The position numbers and the translations under genes are program-made. The notes below the pieces were generated by a model, which saw only the letters and a program-made list of their open reading frames with translations, was not told where the DNA came from and made no database searches. Positions 2,187 through 36,643 of a stretch of DNA of 37,723 bases are shown piece by piece (within the stretch, counting starts at the first letter, position 1; each line of letters opens with the position of its first letter). The DNA lies in IMG/VR virus record IMGVR_UViG_3300048918_000366, positions 1 through 37,723 of that record, one strand, 5' to 3'. Source of the DNA: a virus.

Positions 2187-2828
2187 TTAGGCTGTTTTGA
2201 GGCGCAGCTGTCCCTGGATGCCGCCCTGCTTCTCGACTTTTCGCAGGACGGAGGGGGGAAGGACGGCGAATATCTCGCCAATCCAGTCCAACGAAACCGC
2301 TTCTATAGGAGCGGCGTTCCAAGACAGAAGGTTGACGCCAGAGGCGCCGCGCATAATCGTCTTGATGAAGCGGCGGCCGTCGGTTGTCTTGACGGCGGCC
2401 TCTTCACCGTAGAACGACTCAAGCGGCTTTTTCTGATCCCGGTAAACGACGATTACGGTACCGTCTTTGAATACGGGCAGCATTGAGATGCCTCGCACCT
2501 TGAAAGCTATCATGTCGTCGGGGAGGGGAAATGGGATGTTGACCTGGTCGAGGCCCTCTGGCGGGACCTGTTCATAATCAGGCTCTACCTCGGCGCCGGC
2601 GCCAAGATATCCCATGATCGGAATTTCAGTCACATCAACGGCTGGTGCTGGCTCGTCAACCAAGCTCTCGTAGGCCGCGTTGATCGCGTCGCGCCGATGA
2701 CCTTCCGGCTCCGATCCTGCCAGCCAGCGATTTACGGTCGATTGCGAAACATCGAAATGCTCCGCGAGCCTCTGCTGTTTCCAGCCAGTCGCTTTCATGA
2801 TCGCGCGTATTTTTGTTTCGATATCCAT
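2187..2828 (-). CDS. CI-like prophage repressor, HTH + S24/LexA peptidase
   Basis: 213 aa, a normal length for a lambda CI/LexA-type repressor. Residues 1-60 form an HTH domain (GWKQQRLAEHFDVSQSTVNRWLAGSE) that should bind the 16-bp operators flanking the gene. Residues ~68-213 form the S24 domain: a self-cleavage site at A77-G78 (in GYLGAGAEV), nucleophile S115 in RGISM, and general base K156 in RRFIKTI. All parts needed for RecA-stimulated autocleavage are present, so SOS induction is expected (family knowledge). The start is the ATG at 2828; no strong Shine-Dalgarno sequence precedes it. It is transcribed toward PL, as cI is in lambda. Function is secure; operator specificity is inferred. 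Confidence 0.93.
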   Translation of the reverse strand: MDIETKIRAIMKATGWKQQRLAEHFDVSQSTVNRWLAGSEPEGHRRDAINAAYESLVDEPAPAVDVTEIPIMGYLGAGAEVEPDYEQVPPEGLDQVNIPFPLPDDMIAFKVRGISMLPVFKDGTVIVVYRDQKKPLESFYGEEAAVKTTDGRRFIKTIMRGASGVNLLSWNAAPIEAVSLDWIGEIFAVLPPSVLRKVEKQGGIQGQLRLKTA

Positions 2829-2863
2829 TGAAATGACGCTGCCACGGGGTTTTGAAAAACAAA

Positions 2864-2912
2864 AATCCGCTTGCGCATAAATTTGCGCTTGCAAACTATC
2901 CGTTTGCGCATA
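2864..2912 (+). promoter_or_regulatory. Right operators between repressor and Cro genes
   Basis: TATCCGTTTGCGCATA at 2897-2912 is the exact reverse complement of the OL1 16-mer. A weaker copy, AATCCGCTTGCGCATA, lies at 2864-2879 (two changes), nearer the repressor start. A 25-bp stretch at 2897-2921 matches the reverse complement of 2091-2115 at 24 positions. The strong site lies in the PR spacer and the weak one could autoregulate the repressor gene. Confidence 0.75.
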
Positions 2913-2916
2913 ATAT
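2889..2916 (+). promoter_or_regulatory. Rightward early promoter PR
   Basis: TTGCAA (2889-2894), a 16-bp spacer and TAATAT (2911-2916) form a good sigma-70 promoter with the same geometry as PL. Transcription would begin near 2923, one to three bases before the Cro ATG, so the first cistron is probably leaderless. Confidence 0.7.
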
Positions 2917-2924
2917 CCGCCGTC

Positions 2925-3161
2925 ATGAATGCGATGCGTCATATCAGGGTGTCCGTCTTCGGGCTTACGCAAGCCGAGTTTGCGAAGCTTGCCGATGTGG
3001 GCCAAGCGACAGTCTCTCGCTGGGAAAACGGCGTCTCGCCCTCCCTCGAAGAGATGCAAGCGATTCGATCCGCTGCGTTTGCCAGGGGGATCAATTGGGA
3101 TGACCGTCTCTTTTTCGAGCCGCCGCCGATCGCTGCAGGTGCAGCCGAGGAGGCCGCATGA
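2925..3161 (+). CDS. Cro-like XRE-family HTH regulator
   Basis: 78 aa, divergent from the CI-like gene. An HTH covers residues ~14-50 (GLTQAEFAKLADVGQATVSRW), followed by a short C-terminal tail that is Ala/Glu-rich. Size, orientation and position match Cro, which would compete with CI for the shared operators and favour lytic growth. There is no Shine-Dalgarno sequence: the bases before the ATG belong to the operator and -10 region, so a leaderless message is likely. A second ATG lies three codons downstream. The stop overlaps an ATGA with a strong upstream GAGGAGG, the relic start of the next gene, now displaced by a 650-bp cassette. Confidence 0.88.
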   Translation: MNAMRHIRVSVFGLTQAEFAKLADVGQATVSRWENGVSPSLEEMQAIRSAAFARGINWDDRLFFEPPPIAAGAAEEAA

Positions 3162-16062: not shown

Positions 16063-17859
16063 ATGCCGATTGCCGAGACGTCGGCTGCAGCGATAGCCGC
16101 CTCTGCCGGGCATCTCTTGTGGCCGGAACCGCAATGGGTGCTCGACGCAGTGGCGCGCGGCTGGGAATGGGCGAGGATCCAGTGGCGCCGTGCGGCATCG
16201 CAGGCTGGCGCCTGGTTTGACGAACGCAAGGCCGACGCCGCGGTTGCGCTGTTCCCGCGCATCTTCCGGCTGACGCTCGACCGCTTCGCCGGAAAGCCAT
16301 TTCGGCTGACACTCTGGCAGGAAGTCATTGTTCGGCTGCTCGTCGGCTGGAAAATACCGGTTGAGATCGTCGACGATGAGCAGTCGGCGCCGCACACCGA
16401 GCAGGTTCGTCTATTCCGCAGGCTCTTGCTGTGGGTACCACGCAAGAATGGCAAATCGGAATTCCTGGCCGCGCTGGCGCTGCTGTTCTTCATTCTCGAC
16501 GGTGTCGTCGGCGGGGAAGGATACGCCTTCGCCCGCGACGAAAAGCAGGGCAAGATCGTCTTCGACAAGATGAAGGCCATGCTCGCCATGTCGCCGGCGC
16601 TGGCCGACAAGGGGCAGGCGTTCAAGAAATCGATATGGATCCCGAAAATCCGGGCCATGTTCGAACTGCTGTCGGGAAAGCCGGAAGGCAAGCACGGTCG
16701 CTCCCCAACCGTCATCGTCGGCGACGAGATGCACGAATGGCATACCGCCGAACTCGCCAACACGCTGCGCCAAGGTACCGGCGCCCGCCTCGAGCCGATC
16801 GAGCTCTACGCCTCGACCTCCGGTCTCAAGACAAACCAGACCGGGTGGGCGTTATGGGAAGAATCGAACGCCATTCTCGACGGGCGTATCGACGATCCGA
16901 CCTCACTGGTTGTGATCTTCGCCGTCGATCAGGAAGCTGACTGGCGCGACGAAAGCATCTGGTCTCTGGCGAACCCTTCGCTCGGCATCTCGCCGACCAT
17001 GCAATTCCTGCGGCGCGAAGCCGCGCTTGCCGCCGACAACCCGCGCGCGGAAGCGCATTTCCGCTGCTACCATCTCAACCAGTGGATTGACGCGGTCACC
17101 CGCTGGCTGAATTTGAAGAAGTGGGACGCATGCACCGCCGATAAGACCGGATGGCAGGCGTATGTCGTCAAGGATGGCGAAGACTTCGGTGAGAAGATGC
17201 GGGCCGCTGGGCTCGCCGGCCGCCGTTGCTTCGGAGCGTTCGACATCTCGTCGACCGACGACATAACTGCTCTCGTCTGGGCATTTCCGCCCGATGCCGA
17301 AAACCCCAAATGGAAATTGGTCTGCCGTTTCTGGGTGCCAGAAGAAAGCATCAAAAGGCGGGTCAAGAACGACCGGGTTTCCTACGATCGCTGGCAGAAG
17401 CTCTGCGCCATCACGACGACGCCCGGCGACTATGTCGACCAGGATTATGTGAAGCAGGCGGTGCTGGAAGGGCTTGAGGCCTTCGACGTGGCCGCGATCG
17501 GTTACGACAGCTGGAACGCGACCAAGCTCTACACAGACCTGGTGAAGGACGGCGCACCCGAGGACTTGTTCCTCAAAATGCGACAGGGACACCAGACGCT
17601 CGGCGAGCCGACCAAGTTCTTCGAAAGCCTCGTTTCCTTCGGGAAGCTGGACCATGGAGGAAACCCCGTCATGCGCTGGATGGCCGGCAACACCGCTGTG
17701 CGCTTCGACGAAAACATGAACTTCGTCCCGACGAAGAAGCGCAGCGCAGAAAAGATCGACGGCATCGTTGCTGCGATCATGGCTTGTGGCCTGGCCATCT
17801 CCGCTGAAGAACCGGTCGACCTCGACGAATACCTGCGCGGTGGAGTGATGGCGGCATGA
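16063..17859 (+). CDS. terL: Terminase large subunit, 598 aa
   Basis: ATPase-nuclease that drives DNA into the prohead. Walker A is VPRKNGKS (125-132), Walker B TVIVGDE (D221, E222), with a coupling region around ELYASTSG. The C-terminal nuclease has FGAFDISSTDDITAL (D394) and a distal acidic residue in AEKIDGIVAAIMA (D566). Length matches the HK97/P27-associated large terminases. The start is two bases after terS and the stop overlaps the portal ATG (ATGA). Confidence 0.95.
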   Translation: MPIAETSAAAIAASAGHLLWPEPQWVLDAVARGWEWARIQWRRAASQAGAWFDERKADAAVALFPRIFRLTLDRFAGKPFRLTLWQEVIVRLLVGWKIPVEIVDDEQSAPHTEQVRLFRRLLLWVPRKNGKSEFLAALALLFFILDGVVGGEGYAFARDEKQGKIVFDKMKAMLAMSPALADKGQAFKKSIWIPKIRAMFELLSGKPEGKHGRSPTVIVGDEMHEWHTAELANTLRQGTGARLEPIELYASTSGLKTNQTGWALWEESNAILDGRIDDPTSLVVIFAVDQEADWRDESIWSLANPSLGISPTMQFLRREAALAADNPRAEAHFRCYHLNQWIDAVTRWLNLKKWDACTADKTGWQAYVVKDGEDFGEKMRAAGLAGRRCFGAFDISSTDDITALVWAFPPDAENPKWKLVCRFWVPEESIKRRVKNDRVSYDRWQKLCAITTTPGDYVDQDYVKQAVLEGLEAFDVAAIGYDSWNATKLYTDLVKDGAPEDLFLKMRQGHQTLGEPTKFFESLVSFGKLDHGGNPVMRWMAGNTAVRFDENMNFVPTKKRSAEKIDGIVAAIMACGLAISAEEPVDLDEYLRGGVMAA

Positions 17860-19088
17860 GCTGGCTTTCCATGTGGTGGTCAAAGCCGGCACTGAAGGTG
17901 CGGGATCCCGAGAATTCGCGTCGCGGCTCACACGATTCATGGGCCGGCAAAGCGACGACGCCAGATGCGGTGCTTCAGTTGGCAACAGCATGGGCTTGCA
18001 TTCGGCTTAAGAGCCGTGTTGGCGGCTCTTTGCCTCTGAAAGTGCATACCAGAGGTTCGGGATTGGTGATCGACGATCACCCGCTCTATTCGCTCCTTCA
18101 CGACAGTCCCAATGCCAACCAGACGGCCATGGAGTTCTGGGAGGGTCAGTTCGCGTGCATGGACCTACGCGGCAATGCCTATGCCGAGAAGGTATACATG
18201 GGGCAGCGCCTGGTTGCCTTGGTCCCGATGCATCCGGACAACACGCATCCGTACCGCGCCGCCGACGGCTCACGACGTTATCGGTACTATGATCCGGTCA
18301 CTGGATTTCATGATTGGGGCGAAGACAAGGTTTTCCACCTTCGCAGCTTCGGGACCGGTGGCCTGGTTGGCTTGTCGCCGATCTCATACGGAAGGCAGAC
18401 CTTGGGAACGGCCCTTGCCGCAGACGAAGTCGCGGGGCGTACGTTCGCAAACGGGTTGCAGGTCTCGGGCTTTGCAGAAGACCAGCCGAACGCCAAGACC
18501 AACCAGAAGCAGCGCGAAGAGTTGGTCGAACTGTTTGACAAGTTCTCCGGATCTGAGCGCGCCGGCAAGGTTATGCCACTCCCGCCCGGCTTCAGCTTCA
18601 AAGAGCTGAGCATGAAGCCGGAAGATGCTCAGCTCCTGGAGACACGGGGCTTCCATGTCGAGGAGATATGCCGCTGGTTTGGCGTGTTTCCGATCCTGAT
18701 TGGCCATGCTGCCCAAGGCCAGACGATGTGGGGAACCGGCGTCGAATCGATCAATCTTGCCTGGTTGACGCTCTACCTCGGACCGGAACTTCAGCGCGTC
18801 GAGCAGGCGATTGAAAAGCAGCTCATGACGGCGGTCGACCGGTCAAAGTTCTACGTAGAACACAATGTGGACGCGCTGTTGCGTGCCGATAGCCAGGGCC
18901 GTGCAGCACTGTACTCCGTGCAGGCTCAGAACGGTTTGAAGACCCGCAATGAGATGCGCCGTCGGGAAAACGATCCGCCGCTTCCCGGTGGCGACGTTCT
19001 CACCGTCCAATCAAACCTCCTGCCTCTCGACATGCTTGGCAAAACCCCGCCGCGCGCCGTTCAGCCCGCGCCTGGCGAACCGATCTAG
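17856..19088 (+). CDS. Portal protein, HK97 family, 410 aa
   Basis: Typical HK97-type portal: AWACIRLKSRVGGSLPLKVH near residues 48-67, HPLYSLLHDSPNANQTAMEFWE, LRGNAYAEKVY, VFHLRSFGTGGLVGLSPI, and the wing/stem segment ETRGFHVEEICRWFGVFP. The dodecameric portal forms the DNA channel at one capsid vertex and the docking site for terminase and connector. Pro-rich C-terminal tail. Expected position between TerL and protease. Confidence 0.95.
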   Translation: MSWLSMWWSKPALKVRDPENSRRGSHDSWAGKATTPDAVLQLATAWACIRLKSRVGGSLPLKVHTRGSGLVIDDHPLYSLLHDSPNANQTAMEFWEGQFACMDLRGNAYAEKVYMGQRLVALVPMHPDNTHPYRAADGSRRYRYYDPVTGFHDWGEDKVFHLRSFGTGGLVGLSPISYGRQTLGTALAADEVAGRTFANGLQVSGFAEDQPNAKTNQKQREELVELFDKFSGSERAGKVMPLPPGFSFKELSMKPEDAQLLETRGFHVEEICRWFGVFPILIGHAAQGQTMWGTGVESINLAWLTLYLGPELQRVEQAIEKQLMTAVDRSKFYVEHNVDALLRADSQGRAALYSVQAQNGLKTRNEMRRRENDPPLPGGDVLTVQSNLLPLDMLGKTPPRAVQPAPGEPI

Positions 19089-19097
19089 GAGACGGCC

Positions 19098-19790
19098 ATG
19101 AAAACCAAAGATTTCCCGCTACAGGTCAAGGATGTGTCGGATGACGGCACGTTCGAAGGTTATGGGTCCGTCTTCGGGGTTCGCGACAGCTACAACGAGA
19201 GCGTGGAGCCCGGTGCCTTCGTTGAGAGCCTTGTGCGCCACAAGCGCGAGGGCAGTTCACCCCTGATGCTGTGGCAGCACGATCCGTGGACGCCGATCGG
19301 CGTCTGGGAAGACATGGCCGAAGACAAGAAAGGCCTGTGGGGCAAGGGCCGCCTGCTCGGCGGCGTCCAGAAGGCCGACGAAGCCAAGATCCTGCTCAAG
19401 GCTGGCGCCATACAGGGTCTTTCGATCGGCTACCGTGAGGTCGATACGACGCCGTCGGAGAATGGCGGCCCACGCAAGCTGGTGAAGCTCGATCTCCTCG
19501 AGGTGTCGATCGTGTCGTTTCCGGCCAATCGCCGGGCACGCGTCGAATCCGTGAAATCGGAAGTCATGGAGGAATTCGTTCGCCGCCTGCGCGATGGCGA
19601 CCCCATGCCCGTGAAAGAATTCGAGGACATCCTGCGCGAAGCAGGGGTCCCGAAAGCCATGGCCGTACAGATCGCCTCTGTCGGCTATGCGAAGGCCATT
19701 CGGAGTGAGTCCGAGGGCGAGGCGAGCCAACCAGCTGAATCGGCACTCAAGGCGCTGCGCGCCGCTGTCGACGGCTTCAAGACCCTCTAA
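19098..19790 (+). CDS. Prohead maturation protease, HK97 (U35) family, 230 aa
   Basis: Serine protease that cleaves the capsid delta domain and itself. The catalytic triad is visible: H61 in LWQHDPWTPIG, S109 in IQGLSIGY, E135 in LLEVSIVSFPAN. GGAGAC lies upstream of the ATG. Residues ~160-230 are the C-terminal tail expected to be lost on maturation. Its substrate is the capsid protein encoded next, whose N-terminus is hydrophobic here. Confidence 0.94.
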   Translation: MKTKDFPLQVKDVSDDGTFEGYGSVFGVRDSYNESVEPGAFVESLVRHKREGSSPLMLWQHDPWTPIGVWEDMAEDKKGLWGKGRLLGGVQKADEAKILLKAGAIQGLSIGYREVDTTPSENGGPRKLVKLDLLEVSIVSFPANRRARVESVKSEVMEEFVRRLRDGDPMPVKEFEDILREAGVPKAMAVQIASVGYAKAIRSESEGEASQPAESALKALRAAVDGFKTL

Positions 19791-19809
19791 ACAGAACAGG
19801 AACACTCCC

Positions 19810-21147
19810 ATGAAGATGACCCGTAACCGGGCGTTCGCGCTCGGCATCCTGGCATGCGTAGCGCTTGCCGTTTTCCTTGTCGTCGTCGGCTTCGACCCGC
19901 TCGGCGGTCACAGTGGCATGATCATTGCCACCGCAGCAGCAGGTGGTGCCGCCGATCTCGAAAAGCTCGCGATCGAACTGAAAGACGCCGCCGACATCGT
20001 CAAGAAGCAGGCCGAGACGACATCGACCGAGATAAAGAACCTCGGCAAGGTCACCGAAGAGACCAAAAAGGCGGCCGATGAAGCCTTGATCAAGCACAAT
20101 GAGATTTCGGCGCGCCTGACCGAGATCGAGCAGAAGATGGCGCGCACGCCCGGCACTCCGGAGCGCCGCAAGTCTCTCGGTCAGCAGTTCACCGAGAATG
20201 ACGAGGTCAAGGCATTCCTCGCCGCCAAGAAGTCCAAGGGCAGCGTCAGCTTTTCGACCAAGGCGATCATCTCCGCCTTGACCACGGATGCCGACGGTTC
20301 CGCCGGCGATCTCATCGTTCCGCAGCGCGTCGCTGGCATCATCGCCCCGCCGCAACGTCGCATGACGATCCGTGATCTGCTCACGCCCGGCAATACCGAC
20401 AAGAACGCCATTCAGTACGTGAAGGAAACCGGCTTCACCAACGCGGCGGCGACCGTTTCCGAAACGGCGGGCGGTGCCAAGCCGCAGTCCGACATCAAGT
20501 TCGACATCATGACGACTTCGGTCACCACGATCGCGCACTGGGTGTTGGCAACCAAGCAGATCCTCGACGACGTGCCGCAGCTCCAGTCCTATATCGACGG
20601 ACGCCTGCGTTACGGCCTGATGTATGTCGAGGAAAACCAGCTCCTCAATGGTGGCGGTACCGGCACCGATCTGAACGGCATTTATACCCAAGCCACCAAC
20701 TATGCCGCGCCGATCAATCCGACTGCTGCCGGCAACCTGACCAAGATCGATGTCATCCGCCTTGCGATCCTGCAGGCGTTCTTGGCCGAATATCCAGCCA
20801 ACGGCATCGTGCTGCATCCGTCCGACTGGGCGGATATCGAGCTGACCAAGACCGACGTTGGCGACTATCTCTTCGCCAACCCGCAGAACGGTACCGAGCC
20901 GCGTCTGTGGCGCCTGCCTGTCGTGGAAACCCAGGCGATGACGGTCGACCGATTCCTGACCGGGGCGTTCCAGCTCGGCGCACAGATCTTCGATCGCGAG
21001 GATGCGAACGTCGAGTTGAGCACCGAAGACAGCGACAATTTCCGCAAGAACCTCGTCACCATCCGTGCCGAGGAGCGCCTTGCTCTCGCGGTCTACCGCC
21101 CCGAGAGCTTCATCAAGGGTGCCTTCGCCACCGCGCTCGCTGCGTGA
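19810..21147 (+). CDS. Major capsid protein, HK97 fold, with hydrophobic N-terminus
   Basis: 445 aa. Residues ~8-28 (FALGILACVALAVFLVVVGF) form a strong membrane-type helix after a basic MKMTRNR, an unusual start for a capsid protein. Residues ~48-112 form a coiled-coil delta/scaffold domain (LEKLAIELKDAADIVKKQ, EISARLTEIEQKM). The HK97 core follows: DGSAGDLIVPQRV, VKETGFTNAAATV, ETAGGAKPQS, AHWVLATKQILDD, LLNGGGTGTDLNGI, VLHPSDWADIELTK, RLWRLPVVET, RAEERLALAVYRPESFIKG. AGGAA lies seven bases before the ATG, supporting the long start; an internal ATG at 19918 that would skip the hydrophobic part has no such site. The delta region would be removed by the upstream protease. Confidence 0.93.
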   Translation: MKMTRNRAFALGILACVALAVFLVVVGFDPLGGHSGMIIATAAAGGAADLEKLAIELKDAADIVKKQAETTSTEIKNLGKVTEETKKAADEALIKHNEISARLTEIEQKMARTPGTPERRKSLGQQFTENDEVKAFLAAKKSKGSVSFSTKAIISALTTDADGSAGDLIVPQRVAGIIAPPQRRMTIRDLLTPGNTDKNAIQYVKETGFTNAAATVSETAGGAKPQSDIKFDIMTTSVTTIAHWVLATKQILDDVPQLQSYIDGRLRYGLMYVEENQLLNGGGTGTDLNGIYTQATNYAAPINPTAAGNLTKIDVIRLAILQAFLAEYPANGIVLHPSDWADIELTKTDVGDYLFANPQNGTEPRLWRLPVVETQAMTVDRFLTGAFQLGAQIFDREDANVELSTEDSDNFRKNLVTIRAEERLALAVYRPESFIKGAFATALAA

Positions 21148-36427: not shown

Positions 36428-36466
36428 GGGTTGCAAAGAAGGGGCTATGGTGCGAAGAAAATCGCC

Positions 36467-36643
36467 ATGTCCGTCACAAATCGCGCCGCCCTTGTCTTCG
36501 TTTCGCTAGCCGTCCTTTTGGCTGGACTGCTTATGATTGGGAACTTTCGGCATCCTCAAGGAGCCGCTGTCGCCTGCGTCTCGCTGGCGCAGAAAAACCT
36601 ACCGGCCGGATCGTGGTATTCGGCCGTCTGCCCAGGCTTCTGA
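36467..36643 (+). CDS. Small single-span membrane protein, 58 aa
   Basis: MSVTNRAALVFVSLAVLLAG starts a chain with one N-terminal hydrophobic helix (ALVFVSLAVLLAGLLMIGNF) followed by a short soluble part with two Cys (VACVSLAQKN, SAVCPGF), perhaps a periplasmic disulfide. No strong ribosome-binding site; a TTG 12 codons upstream is an alternative start. It sits between the tail fibre and a polytopic membrane protein. Unknown; a lysogenic-conversion accessory or, less likely, a spanin-like piece. Confidence 0.55.
   Translation: MSVTNRAALVFVSLAVLLAGLLMIGNFRHPQGAAVACVSLAQKNLPAGSWYSAVCPGF

Follow-up and report, generated by a model that had tools for sequence, protein, structure and literature searches.

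The major capsid protein encoded at 19810-21147 (+ strand, 445 aa) of a 37.7-kb virus record, the whole of which (37,723 nucleotides) is called here the window, showed all the features of HK97-type capsid proteins that we tested, and it is set apart by a translated hydrophobic leader at its N-terminus. The window belongs to a phage of the Mesorhizobium group. We give about an even chance to the explanation that the leader is a cleavable and rapidly exchanged hydrophobic tip of the scaffold (delta) domain that acts inside the assembling prohead. We rated this reading highest; behind it come a transient membrane stage and then a partner-specific role.

The head genes of the window are ordered TerS, TerL, portal, S78 protease and major capsid protein. 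According to Pfam and NCBIfam profile matches, the portal protein (17856..19088, +; PF04860, TIGR01537) and the HK97-family (S78) prohead protease (19098..19790, +; PF04586, TIGR01543) adjoin the capsid gene, as in HK97-type head modules. The shell matched PF05065 with an E value of 2.4e-61 and TIGR01554 with 190 bits (cut-off 27.5), and HK97 chains of the PDB could be aligned to it; the HK97-fold shell domain occupies 20275..21144 (+), the alignment with 1ohg/2gp1 beginning at residue 157. From the alignment with mature HK97 capsid chains, the maturation cleavage is expected near residues 155/156. A coiled-coil scaffold domain is fused to the N-terminal side of the shell, as seen in the alignment with the full-length HK97 chain 3qpr and in the confidently predicted helices at residues 51-100. 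This chain aligns from residue 69, which corresponds to HK97 residue 23, and the leader is extra with respect to HK97 gp5, the first residue of which lies near residue 47 of the window protein.

Regarding the delta domain, which after the leader extends over residues 50-155 (19957..20274, +), AlphaFold predicted coiled-coil helices at 37-78 and 83-110, a helix at 123-138 and a strand at 145-149. The model is confident over residues 51-100 only (pLDDT about 78-81, against a whole-model mean of 47), and the overall confidence of AlphaFold on 30 homologues was low, the coiled coil being the only usable part. These predicted helices, placed directly after the leader, match the layout of the HK97 scaffold domain, which has two coiled-coil helices, a third helix and a strand (PMC10275583).

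The leader itself (residues 1-46, 19810..19947, +) consists of a basic start, a hydrophobic core and an Ala/Gly-rich spacer, that is, MKMTRNR, then AFALGILACVALAVFLVVVG (residues 8-27, 19831..19890, +) and then FDPLGGHSGMIIATAAAGGAADLEKLAIELKDAAD. The core has 20 uncharged and strongly hydrophobic residues, and its best 19-residue Kyte-Doolittle mean (KD19) is 3.02. When the leader was shuffled 20,000 times, this value was reached only twice, and all of the 4,188 windows of 19 residues from the remaining head and tail genes stayed below it, with a maximum of 1.97. The leader was also the top hydrophobic peak among the 34 ORFs of the window that we checked. These comparisons rule out an artefact of frame or chance. 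Therefore, an earlier note on this DNA was right in describing a capsid protein that starts with a transmembrane-type helix, with MKMTRNR and about 20 hydrophobic residues placed before a coiled-coil delta domain. A helix at residues 6-25 of the leader is predicted by AlphaFold at low confidence (leader pLDDT about 45). The Pfam and NCBIfam profiles do not reach the leader; the match to the PHROG capsid profile begins at residue 10.

The ribosome-binding site is not decisive for the start codon. We compared the strength of ribosome binding by duplex score at three candidate ATGs and obtained -4.3 at 19810, where the likely site, judged by sequence and duplex scores, is an AGGA at 19798..19801 (+), 8 nt 5' of the ATG; -3.8 at 19816; and -5.7 at 19918, with a bulged GGCGG. 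The same note had taken the ribosome-binding site as backing for the start at 19810, and the AGGA is indeed adequate, but the backing is weaker than stated because the site at 19918 scores slightly better. Nevertheless, the relatives argue for the upstream start. In the annotation of Mesorhizobium phage vB_MseS-P1, the capsid protein begins at the corresponding upstream codon, and most relatives have their best-scoring start, with a ribosome-binding site, ahead of a comparable leader. Most of the relatives that carry such leaders lack a counterpart of the ATG at codon 37 (19918); there is no in-frame ATG near this position in the loci L002, L004, L006, L007, L008, L010 and L029. Furthermore, homologous leaders are under purifying selection within leader types, as judged from their codons, dN being lower than dS in the pairs L007/L016 (dN 0.07, dS 0.48), L016/L017 (0.24, 1.35) and L002/L013 (0.44, 1.17). 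The leader is therefore translated, and a mis-called start with true translation from ATG 19918, which the earlier note had named as what would overturn its reading, is hardly credible: it was dropped on conservation and codon constraint despite the slightly better score of the GGCGG just 5' of that ATG. A minor extra start at 19918 may exist in the window genome alone.

The comparison covered 82 homologues, taken from virus contigs, bacterial genomes and phage records, whose N-termini we read. A leader was called membrane-grade when its KD19 was at least 1.9; 16 leaders belonged to this class, 30 were weakly hydrophobic and 36 homologues had no leader. These counts are descriptive because the thresholds, including those of the two weaker classes, were chosen by us, the start codons were assigned by score, with a few set manually, and the loci were sampled by convenience. 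In the clade of 30 rows around the window, the membrane-grade, weaker and absent states accounted for 15, 11 and 4 rows respectively. On a tree of the shell domain only, the membrane-grade state changed at least 9 times, 5 of these changes being forced by well-supported branches, and all three leader states together required 21 changes. This rules out the leader as a fixed trait of the family. In nearly every pair the shell is the least divergent part and the leader the most, with the coil in between. The segment is conserved in part, and some relatives have none; for instance, L014 is 79% identical to the window protein overall and 87% in the shell, but it starts with MADPDNDLKQ, without a hydrophobic segment.

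Among the N-termini that we read, the hydrophobic leader was absent from HK544 (a relative of HK97), from D3 and its group, and from the Klebsiella, Vibrio, Xanthomonas, Moraxella, Mycobacterium, Microbacterium and Flavobacterium phages examined. Of the gammaproteobacterial and actinobacterial relatives examined, HK544 and D3 among them, none has a membrane-type segment in its delta domain. A hydrophobic leader was found in a Nostoc phage record and two Salinibacter phages. The capsid protein of Nostoc phage Nsp-JY10 (L200:710-2215, 501 aa) has the signal-peptide-like start MKLRTLCGALAFVAFALTITFFAPGIDVAFASVG and a coil like that of L034. The two Salinibacter capsid proteins (L203:815-2197 and L205:1009-2391) start with the membrane-grade leader MFTIVSVSLFALCAAVAALAGDGG; 184 records of Salinibacter ruber phages were matched in the phage collection, with the capsid protein annotated as hypothetical. 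We also observed basic motifs after the hydrophobic part in various leader types, namely GPRIxFxPP..GG, FGRKDG, ERxAGRYLRDGGGH, HRKEDP and RPxGxVGSVR (in L015, L023, L041, L042, L057, L058, L065, L079, L081, L085 and L091). Their recurrence behind the leaders possibly marks a shared functional site.

A natural swap of the leader is found in a prophage of Mesorhizobium jarvisii LMG 28313 (L041), which is about 89% identical to the window over 14 kb. Shell residues 153-445 are 100% identical in both, and the DNA is about 93-94% identical up to 19798 and from 19951 on, the break being confined to about 19799-19950 (L041:2932-3090). In place of the window leader the prophage encodes MNNHLRVAAGGIALLACSMLGPRICFAPPSEGG, whose KD19 of 1.61 is below the membrane-grade cut-off. 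In a 75-bp identity profile over the 14 kb, the leader was the sole strongly divergent spot in the head genes; the other low-identity spots were in the tail region or lay 5' of TerS. If the prophage is functional, this pairing means that the window shell can work with a leader that is not clearly a membrane anchor. The end of the protease gene and the first 20 codons of the coil were also somewhat more divergent in L041 than the rest, which suggests that the replaced patch spans a few hundred bases.

In HK97, scaffold residues 2-66 form trimeric coiled-coil towers inside the prohead, which touch the portal wing at the portal vertex (PMC10275583). Under the reading that we prefer, the leader is a translated N-terminal part of the scaffold domain and, since HK97 residue 23 corresponds to residue 69 of the window protein, it would lengthen the inward-pointing tips of the towers by about 46 residues in the precursor. 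The S78 protease would be expected to remove the delta domain and to cut the leader off with it, so the leader would most likely act during prohead assembly only. There, the hydrophobic tip might self-associate within or between towers, or dock on a partner inside the prohead. As various hydrophobic tips, or none, can serve the same shell, the leader looks like a modular and recombining element and not like a fixed membrane anchor. However, the signal recognition particle would normally bind so hydrophobic a stretch of 19 residues when it follows a basic start, and this counts against a purely interior role, which leaves such binding unaccounted for.

The earlier note had gone further and proposed that proheads are anchored in the inner membrane until the protease acts. 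A translated, membrane-grade segment does precede the coiled-coil delta domain, and the S78 protease adjoins the gene, but the generality of the proposal is not supported, as some relatives lack the segment, and its geometry is problematic. The window leader has a charge of +4 in its N-flank and -3 in its C-flank, and in all of the 18 most hydrophobic leaders (18/18) the helix is preceded by positive charge and followed by 25 residues of neutral or acidic character. Such flanks predict an N-in/C-out orientation, that is, a capsid in the periplasm, the wrong side for a capsid made in the cytoplasm; the opposite pattern, which would keep the capsid in the cytoplasm, was found neither in the window leader nor in the others. 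By analogy with HK97, where the towers point into the closed prohead (PMC10275583), the leaders of a finished shell could not sit in a surrounding membrane. Both points speak against shells that are held at the membrane by their capsid subunits.

A transient membrane contact of unassembled capsid subunits is possible, and the signal-sequence look of many relatives keeps it an option. The leader would bring free subunits to the inner membrane, where they would be concentrated so that proheads can be built, and the anchors would be pulled out or cut before the shell closes or as it does so. We regard this second reading as unlikely, although it is the strongest of the alternatives. The core has the membrane-grade hydrophobicity expected of a signal-anchor or signal-peptide protein, and most membrane-grade leaders have an n-h-c layout resembling a signal sequence. 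An A-x-A motif follows the core in 12 of the 18 leaders, where 7.1 were expected from shuffles (P 0.002, for a motif chosen post hoc); the scan of the window's own leader gave no such motif in the stretch covered. As in this reading, T4 proheads form on the inner membrane and are released after maturation cleavage; however, T4 is attached by its portal gp20, with gp40 and YidC, and not by the shell protein (PMC9958956). The charge bias, the inward orientation of the leaders and the L041 prophage, with the same shell but without a membrane-grade leader, also stand against it. The bolder version, in which signal-like leaders on hundreds of newly made subunits nucleate a tailed-phage prohead at the inner membrane through the shell protein and not the portal, and are swapped between heads that are otherwise identical, is somewhat more doubtful still.

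Third, the leader might recruit or exclude a partner (the protease, the portal or a capsid-hijacking satellite), its exchange reflecting specificity or escape. The local replacement within otherwise near-identical head genes points in this direction, as do several recurring leader types with short basic motifs (GPRIxF, FGRKD, GRYLRDGGGH) after the hydrophobic part. Nevertheless, the protease and portal remain about 93% identical between the window phage and L041 despite the change of leader, so no large change in either of these two partners was needed, and we consider this role improbable. Finally, it is very unlikely that the leader is tolerated baggage, in the sense that any sequence could pile up at the tip of a scaffold that is later removed: 36 of the 82 homologues do without it and the leader types are highly divergent from one another, but dN is well below dS within types and hydrophobicity is kept in many membrane-grade leaders and recurs in the distant Salinibacter and Nostoc phages.

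Regarding known systems, the window protein shares with HK97 gp5 the fused N-terminal coiled-coil scaffold, the S78-type protease upstream, the HK97 fold and the gene order. However, HK544 starts directly in the coiled coil (MSELALIQKAIEES...), whereas here about 46 residues with a membrane-grade core come first. The major head protein of Pseudomonas phage D3, which starts with MSDFEKQIGELNASLKQ, is about 52% identical from residue 49 onwards, and none of the N-termini of the D3 group that we read carries such a leader. The RcGTA major capsid protein (g5) also has the HK97 fold, belongs to an alphaproteobacterial head module and has a mature N-terminus discussed from residue 99 (PMC7296036), but judged by its length of 398 residues it probably lacks the space for an extra leader. 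The closest isolated phage that we found is vB_MseS-P1, whose capsid protein is 71% identical over residues 3-440, including a membrane-grade leader (MTRNIDRIFAFGLLGCIALAAALVFIG) that is only partly like that of the window. This phage yields siphovirus virions when induced, which were analysed by mass spectrometry (PMC11409702); the main text of that paper never mentions a membrane segment or signal peptide.

Our literature search, which was mostly at title and abstract level and covered few subscription papers, and is therefore weak evidence of absence, gave no description of HK97-type capsid proteins with a membrane segment or a signal sequence, nor any structure or biochemistry of a leader-bearing prohead. 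HK97 is the textbook model of capsid assembly and its scaffold domain is regarded as a soluble coiled coil. A hydrophobic leader that is common in alphaproteobacterial relatives, constrained within types and yet exchanged between near-identical phages, points to an assembly step without a counterpart in HK97. This step is directly testable with the window phage and the M. jarvisii prophage, which share their shell domain but differ in the leader.

Two other ORFs of the window deserve mention. At the right end, a 70-aa ORF (36431-36643) has a membrane-grade segment with a KD19 of 2.64 and is possibly a lysis or envelope protein. The ORF at 2187-3059 (- strand) has an internal part, MDIETKIRAIMKATGWKQQRLAEHFDVSQSTVNRWLAG..., whose sequence resembles a helix-turn-helix repressor, which would fit a temperate phage.
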